Notes under the pieces: model-generated
The model's database searches: none
Told to the model about the DNA's origin: nothing
Seen by the model: only the letters and a program-made list of their open reading frames with translations
In this document: piece by piece, positions 36,281 to 50,585 of the stretch
Layout: the number at the start of each line of letters is the position of its first letter
How positions within the stretch are numbered: position 1 is the first letter of the stretch
Assembly (NCBI GenBank): GCA_018702695.1
Contig: JABIYR010000009.1
Span: 1 to 53,552 of the forward strand
Reading direction: 5' to 3'
From: Nitrospina sp.
GTDB lineage: Bacteria; Nitrospinota; Nitrospinia; Nitrospinales; VA-1
Length of the DNA stretch: 53,552 bases
Translations under genes and position numbers: made by a program

Positions 36281-37711
36281 ATGAAAAAGATTATTATCAT
36301 AGGAGGCGGCATCGCTGGGCTGGCGGCGGCAACCCGTATTCAGCAGGAAATTTCAGCAGGAACCCAGCTAGAATGTGCTCTATTTGAAGGCAGTGAGCGA
36401 TTTGGAGGTAAAATTTCCACCGAAAAGATGGACGGATTCGTCATAGAGCGAGGCCCCGATTCCTTCATCTCGCAAAAACCTGCGGCGATTCAGTTCTGTA
36501 AGCAGCTCGGCATTGAAGACCATTTGGTCGGCACCAATCCAGAAACTCCCAACACCTATGTGTACACGGGAGGTAAGCTTGTGACCATGCCAGATGGTCT
36601 GAGTCTGATGATTCCGACAAAGTTTTTGCCTTTCGCGTTCACTCCTTTGTTCAGCCTAATGGGGAAAATTCGTATGGCATTCGACCTACTGATTCCCAAA
36701 AAGGCCGATGACAGCGATGAAAGCTTGGCTTCGTTTGTGCGTCGACGCATGGGCGAGGAAGCATTAAGAAAAATGGCCGAACCCATGTTGGCAGGCATTT
36801 ATGCCAGTGATCCCGAAACGATGAGCATTGGCAGTACCTTCCCCATGTTTGTCGAAACGGAGCGTAAATACCGATCTCTCATTCTGGGAATGTTGGCAAG
36901 AAAAAAAGCCATGTTACTGAACGCCAATAAACGACCGGCCAGCAAGTTCAGCTTATTCATGACATTAAAGGATGGTTTGGGGGAAATGGTCGATACGGCG
37001 ATTAAAAAGTCTCCCGATGTTCAGTTTCAATCTGGGGCAAGGGTGGAATCTATCTCCGGCAAAGAAGGCGACTGGTCGGTGTATCTGGAAGGCGGAGGAG
37101 AATACAAAGCCCAAGCTGTTATTCTGGCGACACCAGGTCATATTACGGCTCGGCTCCTGCAACCAGTTGCTCCTGCTGCCGCAGAAGTTTTAAAGCAAGT
37201 CAAATATGTTTCCACCGCTACCGTTACCCTTGGTTATAAAAAAGAAGGTTTTTCTCACGCTCTGGATGGGTTTGGTTTCGTGGTCCCCAAATGCGAAAAT
37301 CGCAGCATTCTTGCCTGCACTTGGACCTCATCAAAATTTCCTCATCGCGCTCCAGAAGGGTATGTCATGCTACGTTGTTATTTGGGCGGTGCGTTGCGAG
37401 AAGATATTGCCGAAAAAGATGAACACACCATGACCCGCTTGGTCAGGCAAGATCTCAAAGAAATAATGGGCATCGAAGAAAAACCGGTGTTTTGCAAAGT
37501 ATTTCATAACCGAAAATCCAACGTACAGTATCAAGTGAATCATTCCGTACGCATTGATACCCTCATGAAAGAATTGGATGCTTTCCCAGGCCTATTTCTG
37601 GCAGGCAGTGCTTACCGTGGAATAGGAATACCTGACTGCATTCAGAGTGGCAATGAATCGGCTGAATCAGTGATTCAATTTCTTGCGGACAAATCCAAAG
37701 CGGAAATTTAG
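36281..37711 (+). CDS. hemG: Protoporphyrinogen oxidase, HemY type
   Basis: FAD enzyme oxidising (copro)protoporphyrinogen IX with oxygen in haem synthesis, 476 residues. The dinucleotide site KKIIIIGGGIAGLAAATRI opens the protein; GGKISTEKMDGFVIERGPDSF is the next FAD contact. The family's SLASFVRRRMGEEALRKMAEPMLAGIYASDPE and the C-terminal LAGSAYRGIGIPDCIQSG are present. The oxygen-dependent type implies aerobic or microaerobic growth; the many c-type haem sites further on would need it. Whether the substrate is copro- or protoporphyrinogen is not clear. FIST gene follows after 37 bases. Confidence 0.93.
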   Translation: MKKIIIIGGGIAGLAAATRIQQEISAGTQLECALFEGSERFGGKISTEKMDGFVIERGPDSFISQKPAAIQFCKQLGIEDHLVGTNPETPNTYVYTGGKLVTMPDGLSLMIPTKFLPFAFTPLFSLMGKIRMAFDLLIPKKADDSDESLASFVRRRMGEEALRKMAEPMLAGIYASDPETMSIGSTFPMFVETERKYRSLILGMLARKKAMLLNANKRPASKFSLFMTLKDGLGEMVDTAIKKSPDVQFQSGARVESISGKEGDWSVYLEGGGEYKAQAVILATPGHITARLLQPVAPAAAEVLKQVKYVSTATVTLGYKKEGFSHALDGFGFVVPKCENRSILACTWTSSKFPHRAPEGYVMLRCYLGGALREDIAEKDEHTMTRLVRQDLKEIMGIEEKPVFCKVFHNRKSNVQYQVNHSVRIDTLMKELDAFPGLFLAGSAYRGIGIPDCIQSGNESAESVIQFLADKSKAEI

Positions 37712-37748
37712 CATCTAATCTCTCAGACCATATTAAAAAGGAGTTTTT

Positions 37749-38942
37749 ATGAAATGGGTTTCCGCCCTGTCCCGGCAAACAGATATTGACGGGGCTATAC
37801 AAGAAGCGGCTGAATCGATCACCCAACAACTGGGTAGCGATCAAGCCGATTTGACCATTGTGTTCGTTTCCCCCCAGTTCAAGGAATTTTATGACAAGGT
37901 TCCCGACTTGATCAGCCGGTATTTTAAACCGGGTCTGGTCTTTGGCTGTTCAGGAGGGGGCATCATTGGCAATGGCGAAGAGGCTGAGCAACAGGCGGCC
38001 ATCAGCATCACCAGCGCACAATTGCCGGGTGTGAAAATTCAACCCCTGCAATTTGAAACCACCGAGTTGCCAGACCAAGACACCTCTCCTTCTGTATGGA
38101 GAGAATGGCTGCAGGTGCAAGTGGAAGACAACCCACATTTTGTTTTTCTAGCAGACCCTTTTTCATTTCAAGGGGAAGAGTTTCTGGCAGGAGTAGATTT
38201 TGCCTACCCCAATAGTAAAAAAGTAGGTGGGCTGGCGAGCGGGGCTCAAGCCTTGGGTGGCAATGCCCTGTATCTGGGAAATAAAATTTATAACAGTGGG
38301 CTGGTGGGCATTGCATTGAGTGGTGATATTGAAGTCGATACCATTGTCGCGCAGGGGTGTCGCCCCATTGGGGAACCTATGCCCATTACGAAATGCAAGG
38401 AAAACCTGTTGCAAGAGCTGGACGGGAAACCTCCACTAGAAATACTTAAAGAGATCCACGAAACATTATCAGATTCCGACAAAAAACTGATCCAGAGCTC
38501 GCTGTTTTTGGGGATAGAAATGGACCCCATGAAAGACAACCCGAAACAGGGTGATTTCCTCATTCGTAATTTGATGGGTGTTGATCGAGAAAGCGGTGCG
38601 GTGGCGATTGGAGCTTTATTGAGAAATGGACAATTGGTGCAGTTTCATTTGCGTGATAAAAAAATGTCGGCAGAAGATTTGGATGTCATGTTGACCCGTT
38701 ACCTCAATAAAGGCAATGCTGAAAATGCTAAAGGGGCCTTGCTGTTTTCATGTCTGGGGCGAGGCCAATATCTTTATGGAAAAGCCAATCACGACACCGA
38801 TATGTTTCACGGTAAGCTGGGGAAGATTCCTCTCGGTGGTTTCTTCTGCAATGGCGAGATTGGGCCAGTGGGAAACACCACGTTCTTGCACGGTTATACC
38901 AGTTCTTTCGGGATTTTTAGAAAAGCCAGTTCCCATCAATAG
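37749..38942 (+). CDS. FIST-domain sensory protein
   Basis: 397 residues covering both FIST_N (about 15-205, FGCSGGGIIGNGEEAE) and FIST_C (about 215-375, ending GGFFCNGEIGPVGNTTFLHGYTSSFG). FIST proteins bind small ligands, perhaps amino acids, and are usually fused to signalling domains; here it stands alone and is cytoplasmic. It lies between hemG (37 bases) and an MBL-fold hydrolase (114 bases) on the same strand. The ligand is unknown. Confidence 0.88.
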   Translation: MKWVSALSRQTDIDGAIQEAAESITQQLGSDQADLTIVFVSPQFKEFYDKVPDLISRYFKPGLVFGCSGGGIIGNGEEAEQQAAISITSAQLPGVKIQPLQFETTELPDQDTSPSVWREWLQVQVEDNPHFVFLADPFSFQGEEFLAGVDFAYPNSKKVGGLASGAQALGGNALYLGNKIYNSGLVGIALSGDIEVDTIVAQGCRPIGEPMPITKCKENLLQELDGKPPLEILKEIHETLSDSDKKLIQSSLFLGIEMDPMKDNPKQGDFLIRNLMGVDRESGAVAIGALLRNGQLVQFHLRDKKMSAEDLDVMLTRYLNKGNAENAKGALLFSCLGRGQYLYGKANHDTDMFHGKLGKIPLGGFFCNGEIGPVGNTTFLHGYTSSFGIFRKASSHQ

Positions 38943-39056
38943 GTTTGGGACCCGCAGGTCATGATTTTTGTGGCGAGTGAAGGGTGAACTCGGCGTGACG
39001 AGATTGTTCTTTTACAACCGCCACAAAAACCTGATGTTTTCACAGACGGTGCATTC

Positions 39057-39827
39057 ATGAAGATTACCATATTGGGTTCGGGGACTGCCGTACCCTCGCT
39101 GGAGCGGTGTTCCTCTAGTGTGCTCATTCAGGAGGCAGGCACCTATACCCTAGTTGATTTTGGCTACGGGACCCTGAGACAGCTTTTAAAGCTAGGCATC
39201 ACCTACCACGATATCGATCGCATTTTTTTTACCCATAATCACCCCGACCATGTCAGTGACTTAATCCCTTTTTTATTTGGCGCGCGACATCGCCCCTCAG
39301 CAAGAAAAAAGAATTTGGAAATTGTGGCGGGGCCAGGGTTCCGTGAATTTTTCAACGCCCTCATGCAGGCTTTCAAACATTGGCTGATTCCGACCGATTA
39401 CCAACTCACCATTACCGAGGTCGATGAAGGAGCAAAACAGTTTGGGCGGCATCAAGTTGTTTTCAAAAAGGTTCGGCATATAGAGATGAGCCGAGGCTAT
39501 CGGTTTGAGAATTCTGCTGGAAAGTCGGTGGTGTTGTCGGGGGATACTGATTATTGCTCGGCAATGATCGAATTAGGTAAAGAAGCCGACCTTATGATTC
39601 TCGACTGTGCCATGCCGGATGGAGAAAAAATATCCGGGCATCTGGTTCCTTCGTTGGCAGGTAAGCTGGCTCAGGAAGCCCAATGTAAAACACTTTGTCT
39701 CACCCATTTTTATCCACCCTGCGAAATGGATGTCATCGGCGAAACCGTGTCGGGTATCTATGACGGTGAACTGGTTTTAGCTTATGATCTCATGTCATTT
39801 GAACTGGGCGATTGCAATGCCGACTAA
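39057..39827 (+). CDS. MBL-fold metal-dependent hydrolase (RNase Z-like)
   Basis: 256 residues. It opens with the MKITILGSGTAVPSLER strand and has THNHPDHVSDLIPF (HxHxDH, two-zinc site), later GDTDYC and TLCLTHFYPPC. The layout is that of the ElaC/RNase Z-related branch, but the flexible arm of true RNase Z is not clear, so tRNA 3' processing is only one option; phosphodiesterase or lactonase activity is possible. Last gene of the hemG-FIST run. Confidence 0.85.
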   Translation: MKITILGSGTAVPSLERCSSSVLIQEAGTYTLVDFGYGTLRQLLKLGITYHDIDRIFFTHNHPDHVSDLIPFLFGARHRPSARKKNLEIVAGPGFREFFNALMQAFKHWLIPTDYQLTITEVDEGAKQFGRHQVVFKKVRHIEMSRGYRFENSAGKSVVLSGDTDYCSAMIELGKEADLMILDCAMPDGEKISGHLVPSLAGKLAQEAQCKTLCLTHFYPPCEMDVIGETVSGIYDGELVLAYDLMSFELGDCNAD

Positions 39828-40003: not shown

Positions 40004-40312
40004 GAAATACCTCTGATACGTAGATTGAGAAAAGAGTCCCTATTTTAATTGTCGGGACAAGAATACAGAAGCTTGAAATATTGTGCAATTCTCATCTCAC
40101 TAAATTCTTGGTCACAGCCGGTGGCTGGCATTGCATTTGAGAGCAGAAGGCAACGCGTGAAATTTGCAATGTTCAAGGTAGAGCCTTTAAAAATCAGAGG
40201 AATATGTGGCAAGCCTTAAAAACATTTTATTCTTCCAGAATTGGGGGTATATTCCATTTTTTTCTCCGGTATAATTGAAGGCTATGGCTCTATATTAAAA
40301 AGGGGTGAGCGC
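40004..40312. other. Non-coding region upstream of the DUF1566 gene
   Basis: About 309 bases between a minus-strand small gene and the plus-strand DUF1566 gene. No gene seen. A perfect -10 hexamer TATAAT (40270-40275) lies 37 bases before the ATG at 40313, but no fitting -35 is present, so an activator may be needed. Confidence 0.4.
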
Positions 40313-40798
40313 ATGCCAGCTTTATCATATTTTATTTCAGCAATTTTCTTTGTTTGTTTTCTTAACGCTCCGGTCGGGGCGGCATCCTTCACTGATAATC
40401 AAAATGGAACCGTGACAGATTCTGCAACGGGTTTGGTTTGGCAGAAAAGCGACTCCTTTCATGACCTGAAAAAAGGCCTCAACTGGTATGACGCTTTAGA
40501 TTATGTCACGCGAAAAAACTCAGAAAAATTCGCTGGGCATGATGATTGGCGTCTGCCTACCTTAAAGGAGTTGAATGCCTTATGGCGGGCTTCAGGAAAG
40601 ATCAAAAGTAAGGATGGGGAAGTTCTGGGTCTGGCTCCGGAATTTGACGGCGGTGGAAGCTATTATATTTGGACCGGAGATGAACGAGGGTTAGACCATG
40701 TCTGGTATTTTGGTCTCGGTCAGAAAGAAAACTATTTTAACCTGAAAGATCTGGCAGACTTGGAGCAAGGTGTCAAAATGGTTCACTCACTACCATGA
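40313..40798 (+). CDS. Secreted DUF1566 (Lcl C-terminal) domain protein
   Basis: 161 residues from ATG 40313, which has AGGGGTGAG upstream; longer frames lack a signal peptide. The Sec signal is cleaved near GAA-SF. The mature part FTDNQNGTVTDSATGLVWQK, then DDWRLPTLKELNAL, matches DUF1566, a C-type-lectin-like surface fold. Likely periplasmic or surface located, perhaps binding a glycan or protein. It lies 61 bases upstream of the cytochrome gene and may be co-transcribed with it. Confidence 0.8.
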   Translation: MPALSYFISAIFFVCFLNAPVGAASFTDNQNGTVTDSATGLVWQKSDSFHDLKKGLNWYDALDYVTRKNSEKFAGHDDWRLPTLKELNALWRASGKIKSKDGEVLGLAPEFDGGGSYYIWTGDERGLDHVWYFGLGQKENYFNLKDLADLEQGVKMVHSLP

Positions 40799-40859: not shown

Positions 40860-42539
40860 ATGAAACCAAATATCTCCTATTCAAAGCTTGCTTTACTGGT
40901 GTGGGCCGTTTTAGGTTACGCCCCTTCATCGGCGCTAGCGCAAATGCATGATATGGATCATGCCCCATCTGGGCAGGAGTACCGAATGCCTATGGAGCAT
41001 GAAGGTCATGGTGCGGAACACGGTGAGGAAAATTTATTTCATACTCGAGGGTCGCACGACCAACCCGGTTTATCCAAGCCTGAAGAGAAAGATGCCAAAA
41101 GCTTGCTGGCACGCGGCCGGAATATTTATTTACATATGTGCGTGTTCTGCCATGGAAAAGATGGCAATGGTGGCGGCAAGGCGGTGGAATATTTATACCC
41201 GTGGCCGAGAGATTTCAGGAAGGGAATTTTTAAATTCCGCTCCACTCCCACAGGCACGCTTCCTCGTGATGAAGATTTATACCGAACCATCATAAACGGC
41301 ATTCCCGGTACCTCTATGCCTGCATGGAGAGAGGCGTTGAGTCCGGAAGACACTTGGGCTTTGATTCACCATATTAAGAATTTTTCAGCACGCTTCAAAA
41401 CTGAAACGCAGGGAGAAAAAATAGCCATGCCAGCCTCGGTGGTTTCGTCCCCTGCATTGGTGGCGCGAGGCAAGGAATTATTTACAGAATTAAAATGCTC
41501 GCGCTGTCATGGTGATTCTTTAACTGGCGATGGGGAACTGGCAGAATCTCTCATGGATGCTTGGAAACATGCGGTATTTGTGCACGACCTGACCAACCCC
41601 AATTATATTAAGAGCGGTCATACGCCAGAGGATCTTTTTAGAACCATTACCTCAGGGTTGGATGGAACGCCGATGGGCTCTTATGTTCATGTGCCAGAAG
41701 AAGACCGTTGGGCGTTGGTGCATTATATTCGGTCCAAGTCAGTGAAGGAATTTAAAGAGGCGGAGTTTGAGACCGATATTTATTCGTTGCCGGTCGAGGT
41801 GGAACTGAATACCGAACCTTTCAGTCCGGTGTGGAAGGGCGTGGCGAGTACAAGTTTGGTATTGCGCCCGTTGTCAGCAAGGCGGGGAGCGGTGGAGTTT
41901 ATCAATGTCGCATCGGTGAACAACGGTGAGCAGTTGGCAGTGCGCTTGCAATGGGAGGACCCCACTCACGATGCTTTTTCTGAATTACATTCCGATACGT
42001 TTCGAGATGGAGCGGCCGTACAGTTTGCATTGGGAGCGGTTACGCTTCATACCCACGGTCATAATGAACCCTTTTTTGGCATGGGCAACCGTAGCAAACC
42101 GGTGAATATCTGGCATTGGAAAGCCGGCCTAGAAGAAGCACTGGAGGCTGAAGATGACTTGGAGTATGCCGGAGGAGGCGTGGATATGGACGCTCTGATC
42201 TATGGCGGCATCATGTCGAACCCGGTGTATCGGCTAAACACCACCGGTGAAAACCCGGTGGAAGAATTGAATGCGGAAGGCTTTGGCACGATAACACCTC
42301 AACCTGCTGCGAATCAAAATGTTGAAGGTTCTGGAGAATGGAAAGATGGCATCTGGACGGTGGTGTTTCTCCGCGATATGCCAAAAACAGGAAAATGGGA
42401 TGTGGATTTTGCCCAACGTATTGACCCGGCATTGATGGCATTTGCGGTTTGGGATGGCGTCAAAGAAGACCGGAACGGACGAAAAGTGATCAGCGTCTGG
42501 CAACGATTCAATATTAAAAAACCGAAGGTTGCACCTTGA
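40860..42539 (+). CDS. Dihaem cytochrome c fused to ethylbenzene-dehydrogenase-type haem domain (NxrC/EbdC-like)
   Basis: 559 residues from ATG 40860 (GTG 40848 possible). Signal peptide cleaved near ALA-QM. A His/Met-rich segment (about 28-65) could bind copper. Two cytochrome c domains have CVFCH (94-98; axial Met153 in GTSMPAW) and CSRCH (213-217; Met272 in GTPMGSY). Residues about 320-545 are an EB_dh-type haem domain (MGNRSKPVNIWHWKA near 408-422, offering Met and Lys ligands as in EbdC). Such proteins serve as gamma subunits of DMSO-reductase-family molybdoenzymes, including nitrite oxidoreductase, or as stand-alone electron carriers. No molybdoenzyme genes are adjacent. Its TGA overlaps the next gene's TTG. 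Confidence 0.88.
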   Translation: MKPNISYSKLALLVWAVLGYAPSSALAQMHDMDHAPSGQEYRMPMEHEGHGAEHGEENLFHTRGSHDQPGLSKPEEKDAKSLLARGRNIYLHMCVFCHGKDGNGGGKAVEYLYPWPRDFRKGIFKFRSTPTGTLPRDEDLYRTIINGIPGTSMPAWREALSPEDTWALIHHIKNFSARFKTETQGEKIAMPASVVSSPALVARGKELFTELKCSRCHGDSLTGDGELAESLMDAWKHAVFVHDLTNPNYIKSGHTPEDLFRTITSGLDGTPMGSYVHVPEEDRWALVHYIRSKSVKEFKEAEFETDIYSLPVEVELNTEPFSPVWKGVASTSLVLRPLSARRGAVEFINVASVNNGEQLAVRLQWEDPTHDAFSELHSDTFRDGAAVQFALGAVTLHTHGHNEPFFGMGNRSKPVNIWHWKAGLEEALEAEDDLEYAGGGVDMDALIYGGIMSNPVYRLNTTGENPVEELNAEGFGTITPQPAANQNVEGSGEWKDGIWTVVFLRDMPKTGKWDVDFAQRIDPALMAFAVWDGVKEDRNGRKVISVWQRFNIKKPKVAP

Positions 42540-43822
42540 AGAAAAATATTTTATGGGTCGTGCAATGCTTCTTTTTAGTTTTGATGTTTTCTCCTGTGCA
42601 GGCAGAGTCTGCAATCGGGGTGGGAGAATTGAACCGTTTACTACAGGTGCATCAGCCGAAAAAGCTACAGTCAGATATAGATCTGAATTCGGGTGTATCA
42701 AAAAAAATAAAACTTCGGCCAGAAGGGGAGGAAACGCTCTTCACCATTCCAGGGTTCAAAGAATTTGGTTGCGCCGAGTGTCATCAGGCCGAACGATTGC
42801 TGGACCAGTCTATCGACCGGATGAAAAAAACGCTGGATCGTTTGGCTGCGACCTTTCCTACTTCGCCGCTATTGAAGCAATTCATCATCCAGTCTTGGTC
42901 GGATGAGTGGCTTCGCCCCAGTCAATTCGCGCACACTACTTTTGATACCATTCGCATTTCTCCCGCCGCTATTTTAGTGGACAGTCGAGCCTACGAGAAC
43001 GCAACACATCTGCATGAGTCGTTGCATTTGACGCAACCCTTTTTGGGGGTGGCGAATGAGTTGGAAGCATATGGTTTGAATATCCGCGCTGACCCGCGTT
43101 TTCTGTTTTTGAATTTCCCTTATTTTTCCGACACCATCACGGGTTTTTTTATTCCTGATTTTGCCGATATCCTGGCTAGATTTTTTGACCGCGAAGTCAA
43201 AGAGACGATGAAGGTTTTAGGAGAAGATAGCGTTGTCCCGAAAGAGGTGCAATGGTATTTGATGCCTTTCGAAGATGACAACTTGAGGCGGGTGGCGACC
43301 GCCATTGAAAAGATGGAACCCGTGTTGCAAGAAGTGTCCCGCTTGAATCGGGTGTATCCTTTGCGCTCCGCATACCTCGGCGAACAGACCCATGCGGTCT
43401 CCTTATTGCTGGATATCGCGGCGGTAAAAATACTACCGCTTCCGCCTTTGAAGTTATCCTCCGCGGCATTGCAAGAAGGGTTTGAAATAATAGAAGTGCA
43501 ATTCAATAAGTTGGATAACACTCGGCTGGGCTATCGCATAGACCGTAAACGCGAGGCCCTCATGACGTTGACTTATCATATGCGGCTGAAAGACTCCGCC
43601 ACTCGATTGGGAATTTATTTCCGGTTTTTAAAACAACGTTTCATCAATGCCGATGGAGAAATAAAGCTGGTAGTCCCTGATGAGGACGATTTGAAATTAT
43701 TTGTGCAAGAAAAACAAAAGGCCATTGCAAAAATGGCAGAGTCTCCCAAACTCACCCCGATTGAGAAGGCAGGGGCTTTGAGGATGTTGAAAAGTATTCC
43801 CAGTTTCATTGCGAGCGAATGA
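42536..43822 (+). CDS. Secreted monohaem protein with an HExxH motif
   Basis: 428 residues starting with TTG at 42536, overlapping the cytochrome stop. Sec signal cleaved near VQA-ES. One haem c motif, CAECH (79-83), is followed by HLHESLHLTQP, an HExxH zinc-site motif (160-164), with Glu175/Glu177 as candidates for a third ligand (NELEAY). The rest is mainly helical and unrecognised. The protein could be a haem-bearing metallopeptidase, or a metal site used for electron transfer. The strict overlap with the dihaem/EB_dh cytochrome argues for a shared complex in the periplasm. Confidence 0.75.
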   Translation: MKKNILWVVQCFFLVLMFSPVQAESAIGVGELNRLLQVHQPKKLQSDIDLNSGVSKKIKLRPEGEETLFTIPGFKEFGCAECHQAERLLDQSIDRMKKTLDRLAATFPTSPLLKQFIIQSWSDEWLRPSQFAHTTFDTIRISPAAILVDSRAYENATHLHESLHLTQPFLGVANELEAYGLNIRADPRFLFLNFPYFSDTITGFFIPDFADILARFFDREVKETMKVLGEDSVVPKEVQWYLMPFEDDNLRRVATAIEKMEPVLQEVSRLNRVYPLRSAYLGEQTHAVSLLLDIAAVKILPLPPLKLSSAALQEGFEIIEVQFNKLDNTRLGYRIDRKREALMTLTYHMRLKDSATRLGIYFRFLKQRFINADGEIKLVVPDEDDLKLFVQEKQKAIAKMAESPKLTPIEKAGALRMLKSIPSFIASE

Positions 43823-48249: not shown

Positions 48250-48783
48250 TTAGAGCTTGTTGGCGGCGGTGACGAGAGCGGGGCCCTTGACATGGTCTTC
48301 CAAAGTTTCCGCTTGTACTTTATCTTGCAGTTTCATCAAGGCATCGATCACCATTTCGGGTCGTGGTGGGCATCCTGGAATATAAACATCCACCGGGATC
48401 AATGTGTCAATTCCCATCACTGTGGAATAGTTATCATAAAATCCGCCAGAAACCGTACACACTCCATAGGCAACCACCCATTTGGGTTCGGTCATTTGGT
48501 TGTAGACCTTGGTCAGAATGGGTGCTTGTTTATGACTGATCGTGCCTACTACCATGAGCAGGTCGGCCTGACGCGGTGAAAACCTTGGGAACGCCGCTCC
48601 CATCCGGTCGAGGTCGTAACGTGGGCCAGCCACAGACATGAACTCCATTCCACAACATGCAGTGATGAATGGGTAAATGAAAAACGAATATTTTCGTGCC
48701 CAGTTAATTGCCTGAGTCATTTGAGTTACGATTACGTTATTGCCGAGACTCATCTCGGTCTCGGTTCTGTATAATCCAGCCAT
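48250..48783 (-). CDS. nuoB: NADH-quinone oxidoreductase subunit B (orphan)
   Basis: Peripheral-arm subunit of complex I that holds cluster N2. The 177 residues contain the four ligands Cys43, Cys44 (TACCGMEF), Cys109 (GVCTVSGG) and Cys138 (PGCPPRPE). ATG 48783 has GGAG 8 bases upstream and is preferred to ATG 48819. No other nuo gene is within 30 kb; the NuoF-like protein at 16761 is the closest. It may be an extra copy, or the complex's genes may be scattered. Monocistronic on this view. Confidence 0.93.
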   Translation of the reverse strand: MAGLYRTETEMSLGNNVIVTQMTQAINWARKYSFFIYPFITACCGMEFMSVAGPRYDLDRMGAAFPRFSPRQADLLMVVGTISHKQAPILTKVYNQMTEPKWVVAYGVCTVSGGFYDNYSTVMGIDTLIPVDVYIPGCPPRPEMVIDALMKLQDKVQAETLEDHVKGPALVTAANKL

Positions 48784-48972
48784 GCCATCCACTCCATGAA
48801 TTGAGGTTATGGGATGCATAATAAAATATTTTGAGCAAAATATCCAAGAAAATCTCCATTCTCCGGCAAGGTATGGGAGAAGCGGGCCTCAATGAGCTAA
48901 AACTATTGTTTAGCGGCAGGGAAAACCGGGGCAGAGTGCCTTTTAATCTAACTCCCGTTACAGGAGTGGGCC

Positions 48973-49002
48973 TTGCTTGCTGGCTATAAACAAGTGTATA
49001 AT
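48973..49002 (+). promoter_or_regulatory. Sigma-70 promoter of the LRR gene
   Basis: TTGCTT (48973-48978), 18 bases, perfect TATAAT (48997-49002). Start predicted near 49009, giving a leader of about 97 bases. Confidence 0.55.
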
Positions 49003-49105
49003 CGGATAAATTAGTGAGAATGGGTTCCTAATAGAAAAATCAGCCTCTTGCAGGGTTTCTGTGCTGTGCTGGGTTGTCTGAAATAATTGTTGGAGAATAA
49101 GAATT

Positions 49106-49654
49106 ATGGATTATAGCGGCAACAAAACTTCTGCCGGTCAGGAAAGAATTCTGGCTGAAACGGAGTCGATTATCCGAATGCATTTGAGCAAGGACGGAAA
49201 AACCCTAGACCTCACTGCTGTTTATTTGAAGGAGTATGGAGCTAAGGATATCGCCCGCATGGAGTTTTTGCGGCCTTTAACAAACCTAGCTTTTGGAACC
49301 AATCTATGCGGTGCTAAAGGGGCCAAGTATTTGGCTCAATCGGAAGTGCTGGTCAACCTGACTTCCCTAAACCTGTTTTATAACCGGATCGGCAATGAAG
49401 GCGTGAAATACCTCGCTGTCTCTGACAATCTTTTGAGCTTGCAGAATCTGGTTATTACGGATAATGAAATCACCGATGAAGGAGCCATCACTTTGGCGAA
49501 ATTTCTCCCTCTGTTCACCAACCTGGTGCGTCTAGACTTACGCCTCAACCGGATTAAAGATGATGGAAAAGATGCCCTACGAGAAGCGCAAAAAATGTCT
49601 AGCGTTAAACACCTGCTCCTCGACAAAGTAGAAGGTTTTCAGGTGAAAAGTTAG
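49106..49654 (+). CDS. Leucine-rich repeat protein, paralogue of the 21.8-kb LRR gene
   Basis: 182 residues, no signal peptide. The N-terminal block IIRMHLSKDGKTLDLTAVYL parallels the start of the LRR protein at 21776. Four to five RI-type repeats follow (LTSLNLFYNRIGNEGVKYLAVS; LVITDNEITDEGAITLAKF). TTGGAG about 10 bases ahead of the ATG. A short GC hairpin (CCGGGC/GCCCGG, near 49655-49670) follows the stop but is trailed by A rather than T. It is monocistronic; its partner is unknown. Confidence 0.85.
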   Translation: MDYSGNKTSAGQERILAETESIIRMHLSKDGKTLDLTAVYLKEYGAKDIARMEFLRPLTNLAFGTNLCGAKGAKYLAQSEVLVNLTSLNLFYNRIGNEGVKYLAVSDNLLSLQNLVITDNEITDEGAITLAKFLPLFTNLVRLDLRLNRIKDDGKDALREAQKMSSVKHLLLDKVEGFQVKS

Positions 49655-49739
49655 CCGGGCCTCACGCCCGGTGAAAAAAAATCTATACCTACTGTATTCT
49701 TTCTCACCTTGACTTGTTATATGCCGTCGCCACGGGCGG

Positions 49740-50585
49740 TTAGCCCAATGGGTTTAAAGTCACCCTGTCGTTGTCGAATAGAGGCTGAATATCGCTGAAG
49801 TCGATTCCCACCAGATCAATGCATTGCCGTATGTCAGAACTTTGATAAATAATCTGCCATAAGCGATTACCCAATTCCTGAATATTTTCCAAAAGCGGAG
49901 TCAGCCCGTCATGGGTGCGTAATATTTCAAATAGATCGATCTCCAAGGGTTGCCATTTTTGCTGAACTTTCAGGATTTCTCGATACAGCTCCAACTCATG
50001 CTCAATGAGAGGAAAGGTGCTTCGAAGAGGGTGTGCTTGAGACGATTTTGGGAACAGCGATTGAAACTCTTTTTCAATTTTTCCCACCTTCCAGCCAGTG
50101 AGTAGGTAGCCCGTTAAGTCGCCGTGTAATAAGTTGATGGTTTTAGCCAGTTGCTGGACCGGGTCAATTTGTTCCGCGTGCATTTCTTTTATGAGCACCG
50201 CATTGGGGTAGTCGTTGCTGATACGTTGTTTGATTTGAAAAAGGCTGGCATAAAGTTCGCGCAATACTGAGTTCAAATTTCCAATGGCGATGGGGTCGTT
50301 TGGGTCACGGCTGTCTTTTAAAGAAATGGTTTCTACTTCCAAGTCTCTTTGGGTGGTTTCGATAAAATTGATTTGTGGAATATCTAGCAGGCGGTAAAAA
50401 GTCTCTGGTTTTAGAGCCAAGTCAAAACCAAACTGGTTCAGCACATATTCACGGATTTTTCGACATTTGACGACATCACGAAATGTTTCGACCGCTTGTT
50501 GCAACGGTTCGTTGGTGTCCGCAAAAGGTTGGACAGCCGTTTCAGAACCCAATAGTTTTTGTAAGACGCGTTTTGGTTCTCTCAA
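49740..50585 (-). CDS. Hypothetical soluble helical protein
   Basis: 281 residues, no signal peptide, TM helix or known motif. It is mostly alpha-helical with scattered Pro, including a stretch LLHGDLTGYLLTGWKVGKIEKEF. It is divergent from the 629-residue protein at 50805, sharing a 219-base AT-rich promoter region, which may mean shared control. Not recognised as any family; a real gene by its length and codon pattern. Confidence 0.7.
   Translation of the reverse strand: MREPKRVLQKLLGSETAVQPFADTNEPLQQAVETFRDVVKCRKIREYVLNQFGFDLALKPETFYRLLDIPQINFIETTQRDLEVETISLKDSRDPNDPIAIGNLNSVLRELYASLFQIKQRISNDYPNAVLIKEMHAEQIDPVQQLAKTINLLHGDLTGYLLTGWKVGKIEKEFQSLFPKSSQAHPLRSTFPLIEHELELYREILKVQQKWQPLEIDLFEILRTHDGLTPLLENIQELGNRLWQIIYQSSDIRQCIDLVGIDFSDIQPLFDNDRVTLNPLG

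Follow-up and report, generated by a model that had tools for sequence, protein, structure and literature searches.

We propose that the Nitrospinales carry a three-gene periplasmic module in which a putative metallohydrolase, predicted to hold a haem c within a gluzincin-like core, is encoded beside an alternative gamma-type protein of nitrite oxidoreductase (NXR). This reading, which leans in part on structure models, is given a probability of roughly 0.45. In the literature consulted on the Nitrospinales, which are major marine nitrite oxidisers, neither the acceptor of the electrons leaving NXR nor the function of the several NxrC-like proteins is settled, and a partner protein conserved throughout the order provides a concrete handle on one alternative NxrC. 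Three co-directional neighbouring genes, here named LCL, CYT and HEX, make up the module in the window, i.e., in the whole stretch of 53,552 nucleotides, which belongs to the Nitrospina lineage (Nitrospinota):

40241–40798, plus strand: LCL, a secreted Lcl_C/DUF1566 protein (PF07603, 73.5 bits), first gene of the cassette
40860–42539, plus strand: CYT, a periplasmic cytochrome of 559 residues (PF13442, PF00034, PF09459)
42536–43822, plus strand: HEX, a secreted protein of 428 residues with one CxxCH and one HExxH, an orphan by sequence
42770–42784, plus strand: CAECH, haem c attachment site, HEX residues 79–83 (C79, C82 and H83 invariant)
43013–43027, plus strand: HESLH, HEX residues 160–164, at the end of the predicted helix 156–164 (H160, E161 and H164 invariant)
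43055–43072, plus strand: NELEAY, HEX residues 174–179, at the start of the predicted helix 172–185 (N174, E175, A178 and Y179 invariant)

CYT extends from an ATG at 40860 to a TGA stop at 42537–42539, and HEX starts with a TTG at 42536, such that the two genes overlap by four bases. Both reading frames, their motifs and this overlap are located where the preliminary description of the DNA had placed them. The overlap occurs in some genomes only, while in others the two genes lie up to about 230 bases apart; it was therefore rejected as a conserved form of coupling. Frequent neighbours of the cassette, located in the window at 36281–39827 and 48253–50585, are a flavin amine-oxidoreductase family protein, which is probably a protoporphyrinogen oxidase, a FIST protein, a metallo-beta-lactamase-fold protein, a NuoB-like protein, a leucine-rich-repeat protein and an orphan protein.

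The three genes are mostly kept together across genomes, in support of a conserved periplasmic module of a DUF1566 protein, a cytochrome and an HExxH protein. A pair not kept together in related genomes would, according to the preliminary description, have refuted its view, and the pair withstood this test. Of the 47 loci with enough upstream sequence, 44 have CYT as the gene immediately preceding HEX in the same orientation, a count that leaves aside five further HEX loci cut at contig edges. Exceptions are given by G050, G052 and G059, and by G046, which was seen separately; there CYT stays with LCL at another place. The association of HEX with CYT is therefore not absolute. LCL and CYT are neighbours in 47 of 48 cases, with the remaining one located at a contig edge, and a comparison of both counts identifies LCL and CYT as the tightest pair and HEX as a very frequent third member. 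G051 has an extra LCL–CYT pair in reversed gene order and without HEX, beside apparently heavy-metal-related genes (L128:5532-8175). Directly after LCL and CYT, G046 shows three identical tandem ORFs of 94 residues, 562 bases apart (L123:8625-10030). The encoded protein looks like a GIY-YIG protein, and the triplet could be real or an assembly artefact.

CYT had been described as a fusion of a dihaem cytochrome c with an EB_dh domain, and this architecture is confirmed. Two CxxCH sites are present at residues 94–98 and 213–217, the C-terminal EB_dh domain scores 98.9 bits against a Pfam cut-off of 33.3 (PF09459), and the known structures 7b04_C and 2ivf_C match the protein. Candidate ligand pairs of the haems c, H98/M153 and H217/M272, are invariant in 51 orthologues, where the distal methionines M153 and M272 are assigned by conservation only. 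M408 and K542, the predicted ligands of haem b, are kept in 51 of 51 orthologues and align with Met155 and Lys305 of NXR-C from Kuenenia stuttgartiensis (7b04 chain C). The latter protein shares with CYT the EB_dh fold and the Met and Lys positions predicted to ligate haem b in CYT, but it lacks haem c domains and is encoded together with nxrAB.

Judged by its sequence, CYT is a member of the alternative NxrC kind, which was already described for N. gracilis in 2013. According to the parts of that account dealing with these proteins, alt_NxrC1-4 are periplasmic and combine one to three haem c sites with an EB_dh haem b domain (PMC3578206). CYT has the same make-up and location, and with two CxxCH sites and one EB_dh domain it falls within the definition given there (1–3 CxxCH plus EB_dh). 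A type II DMSO reductase gamma subunit or NxrC has an EB_dh domain and Met and Lys as axial ligands of haem b, both in line with CYT, and is encoded in an operon with alpha and beta subunits; no nxrAB is found beside the cassette in the loci examined. CYT may correspond to alt_NxrC2 or alt_NxrC4 of N. gracilis, both of which are predicted to be soluble. Partners of the Lcl_C or HExxH type are not mentioned in the passages of PMC3578206 on these proteins. In the portion of PMC6606698 concerned with Nitrospira moscoviensis alt_nxrC_2, this protein likewise combines haem c with an EB_dh haem b domain; in contrast to CYT, it carries a transmembrane helix and is found together with a bd-like oxidase. 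The earlier view of the cassette as a new module is retained for the conserved gene set and for HEX, and given up for the cytochrome, which is of a known kind.

HEX, in turn, constitutes a new orphan family as far as its sequence can tell. No match was obtained in Pfam, in NCBIfam above the cut-off or among PDB sequences, nor did searches with profiles or with the core by itself yield any. Its N-terminus resembles a signal peptide, and a CxxCH in an exported protein is the usual mark of a c-type cytochrome; among the Pfam cytochrome families no match was found in spite of the invariant motif. All 50 homologues share C79, C82, H83, H160, E161, H164 and E175. N174, A178, Y179 and N182 are also invariant (48–50 homologues), and E177, named beforehand along with H160, H164 and E175, is kept in 49 of 50 and, in the set of 48 sequences, in 47. 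Poor conservation of these His and Glu residues, which the preliminary description had set as grounds for refutation, was thus not observed. The homologues compared diverge to about 38–45% identity, and at such divergence the identity of these residues in all 50 sequences argues against motifs that arose by chance. Further invariant polar residues among 48 sequences are H39, Q115, Q119, H133, D137, R140, Y196, Q322, N328, Y333, R337 and E340. Invariance amid divergence of this extent is the pattern of an enzyme active site, here read from the alignment.

The full-length protein was modelled by AlphaFold2 with a pLDDT of 91.8 and a pTM of 0.88. From the N-terminus, the model runs through two strands, the segment with CxxCH and a long helix to a set of three strands; the HExxH helix 156–164 and the NELEAY helix 172–185 come next, and an all-helical C-terminal half, about 200 residues in length, completes the chain. 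The core elements of HEX, in the succession of two strands, a backing helix, further strands, a helix, the helix with HExxH and the helix with the Glu, follow the thermolysin-like order. In Foldseek searches of the PDB and of viral models, the full-length model gave no convincing or significant match. The isolated core (residues 50–222), modelled alone with a pLDDT of 82, retrieved gluzincin-type metallopeptidases as 48 of its 50 best PDB matches. These are composed of 45 M1-type entries, including the lanthipeptide peptidase EryP and many repeat entries of the same enzymes, and three entries of the minimal gluzincin selecase; the remaining two are an uncharacterised B. anthracis structure and an unrelated protein. 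The best scores are a probability of 0.98, an E-value of 0.02, with none reaching 0.001, and a TM-score (query) of 0.41–0.50, and the best superpositions show an rmsd of about 4 Å over about 125 columns. Individual scores are thus modest while the list as a whole is consistent, and it is for this consistency that we call the predicted core fold gluzincin-like. Since the modelled core resembles gluzincin metallopeptidases, a haem-metallopeptidase, one of the options raised in the preliminary description, appears to be the best reading of HEX.

Within such a core, E175 is predicted to be the third metal ligand. The third-ligand motif of M1 peptidases is N-E-G-F-A, to which N-E-x-x-A at HEX residues 174–178 would be the counterpart. 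HEX accordingly resembles M1 aminopeptidases, EryP and selecase in its predicted core fold, in the HExxH motif and in a following helix with N-E-x-x-A. It differs from the gluzincins in having no detectable sequence relationship to them and in its covalent haem c site: the CAECH motif lies inside the predicted core, after the second strand and before the backing helix. Membership in family M1 itself is not supported. The M1 profile PF01433 matched none of 48 HEX members, ten residues instead of the 18 of M1 separate HExxH from E175, which is short for a gluzincin, and a GAMEN-like motif as well as the N-terminal M1 domain are lacking. Against alignments of M1 and of Peptidase_MA_2 that had been assembled from relatives, hhalign reported no match, with probabilities below 1%, where the Peptidase_MA_2 result weighs less because one or more frames in its control alignment had been chosen wrongly.

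A haem bound covalently within the core would be odd for a plain peptidase and invites a different chemistry. HEX could be a non-proteolytic redox enzyme or sensor that unites the haem with a nearby mononuclear metal (Fe, Cu or Zn) in the HExxH/Glu site of a gluzincin scaffold and acts on a small molecule such as NO, nitrite or peroxide. The invariant H39 and H133 outside the motifs could then serve as further ligands, the HExxH-x10-E spacer is shorter than that of M1 peptidases, and the partner CYT is an electron-transfer protein. Nevertheless, we regard this as unlikely: nearly all structural neighbours found are hydrolases, and E161, the general base that a purely redox site would not need, is invariant.

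As an orphan restricted to one lineage, a near-constant companion of a cytochrome and a protein with an all-helical half of about 200 residues, HEX could also be thought of as an assembly or scaffolding factor for CYT or for the NXR complex, with a structural haem and a structural or vestigial HExxH. Precedent for a monohaem structural NXR protein is given by NXR-T of K. stuttgartiensis (Kustd1705), which resembles HEX as a monohaem c protein and is NXR-associated in a nitrite-oxidising organism (PMC8387239). However, NXR-T is a four-helix bundle with its haem near the C-terminus, whereas HEX has a predicted mixed alpha/beta core and its CxxCH at residues 79–83 of 428; homology of the two proteins was rejected on fold and haem position. 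Since the complete invariance of E161 and of many further polar residues also argues against a vestigial site, we consider a scaffolding role quite improbable.

For the preferred reading, a haem-bearing metallohydrolase next to an alternative gamma-type protein, the following mechanism can be envisaged. The Met/Lys-ligated haem b in the EB_dh domain of CYT would take electrons, most simply from the iron-sulphur chain of the NXR beta subunit or else from another periplasmic donor, and the two His/Met haems c would pass them to a soluble cytochrome c or a terminal oxidase. What is observed comprises the genes with their signal-like N-termini, their strict conservation, distribution and association, the candidate CYT ligands and the predicted HEX core; for HEX, we infer metal binding and the identity of the metal, hydrolytic activity, substrate, gating by haem and the link to NXR. 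H160 and H164 of HExxH together with E175 of NExxA would bind one metal, probably zinc, and E161 would act as the general base. The haem c inside the core might act as a redox sensor for this electron pool, or be coupled to its redox state, or else bind NO or O2, and in this way gate how a periplasmic protein that partners CYT or NXR is cleaved or matured. HEX would probably help to mature periplasmic electron-transfer proteins, to control their quality or to turn them over under redox gating. The narrower proposal of a redox- or gas-gated periplasmic protease with covalent haem c in its gluzincin core, working specifically for the electron chain by which marine nitrite oxidisers oxidise nitrite, appears rather doubtful to us. 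In the literature searched, no gluzincin with haem c was found. Provided that the active site is real, HEX would unite a covalent haem with a metallohydrolase centre within a single core, a combination undescribed in that literature, and would suggest redox control of periplasmic proteolysis.

The link of the cassette to NXR has to be seen at the level of the genome. Among the window genes examined (about 34–53 kb), no molybdoenzyme gene was noticed, in agreement with the preliminary description, which had suggested a search for nxrA/nxrB-like genes lacking a gamma subunit. CYT is not an orphan gamma subunit, since the same genome encodes nxrA and an nxrC-like gene elsewhere: a fragment of nxrA (153 aa), 97–100% identical to NxrA of many other Nitrospinales, is located at a contig end, and the other EB_dh genes include an nxrC-like one (C69) that is flanked by the same neighbours as nxrC in a relative. 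The missing molybdoenzyme near the cassette therefore has an ordinary explanation, and an nxrAB devoid of a gamma subunit is ruled out by the gene on C69. G005 carries the cassette and nxrABC on a single contig, about 6.4 kb apart and convergent (L143:524-14192, C14).

The distribution of HEX, which was found only in the Nitrospinales, the clade with the Nitrospina-type NXR, is in accordance with that of nitrite oxidation. A profile of 26 homologues identified HEX in 55 of 77 Nitrospinota genomes: 55 of the 64 Nitrospinales have it, whereas all 13 remaining Nitrospinota gave no match. With a profile of 48 sequences, no HEX was found outside the Nitrospinales across 387 genomes (best outsider E-value 0.057), including none in 310 genomes beyond the Nitrospinota. 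Two HEX core peptides searched against 84,980 species genomes returned only loci of this group. HEX essentially occurs in one copy per genome; where two matches were obtained, in two genomes, they are split fragments. Nine Nitrospinales genomes lack HEX, and real loss is not supported for eight of these, in which a conserved neighbour gene is missing too, so that an assembly gap is likely. In G049, the neighbour gene, CYT, LCL and an nxrB end are present while HEX was not detected within the 16 kb read, and this genome is therefore likely the one true absence or relocation.

Almost all HEX loci come from Nitrospina, Nitrospinaceae or Nitrospinota. A locus labelled as a Nitrospirae MAG (L091) matches, by contig position, G024 of the same family as the window, and two from a bin labelled Nitrospirota (L102/L108) match G062 of the same order. 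The cassette, with HEX cut at the contig end, is also found on a contig binned as Alphaproteobacteria (L101, OFTM99), probably a Nitrospinota contaminant from binning.

The NxrA N-terminus of this genome is 91–100% identical in many Nitrospinales and at most about 55% identical in other orders. Since nxr copies are reported to bin badly, cases of missing nxr within the Nitrospinales are expected, and only the class Nitrospinia has been argued to oxidise nitrite (PMC10839748). Both lines agree with a HEX that follows the nitrite oxidisers, a pattern that common descent would equally produce.

Vertical inheritance alone would thus yield the observed distribution, and the module may serve a pathway other than nitrite oxidation, e.g., one in which an unlinked molybdoenzyme oxidises a different substrate, whatever the chemistry of HEX. 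We take this for a real possibility, though one we lean against. The role of the alternative NxrC is left open in the relevant parts of published genome papers, and G012 encodes a CYT paralogue of about 40% identity, followed by an FGE-sulfatase-domain protein and a sulfite-oxidase-family molybdopterin protein (L133:4867-8219), which suggests that cytochromes of the dihaem-EB_dh type in this group may work with molybdoenzymes other than NXR as well. On the other hand, no other molybdoenzyme was noticed among the annotated genes of the conserved cassette neighbourhood, and the cassette is nearly universal in nitrite-oxidising Nitrospinales, including a genome of only about 1.7 Mb. FGE and Lcl_C domains are both regarded as C-type-lectin-like, and the FGE neighbour in G012 may parallel the pairing of LCL with CYT. 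A second CYT paralogue of about 52% identity (L129, L130, L131, L132) is nearly universal in the order and has a conserved locus of its own, composed of a secreted protein of about 160–200 residues without a Pfam match, an NHL-repeat protein and often a STAS protein.
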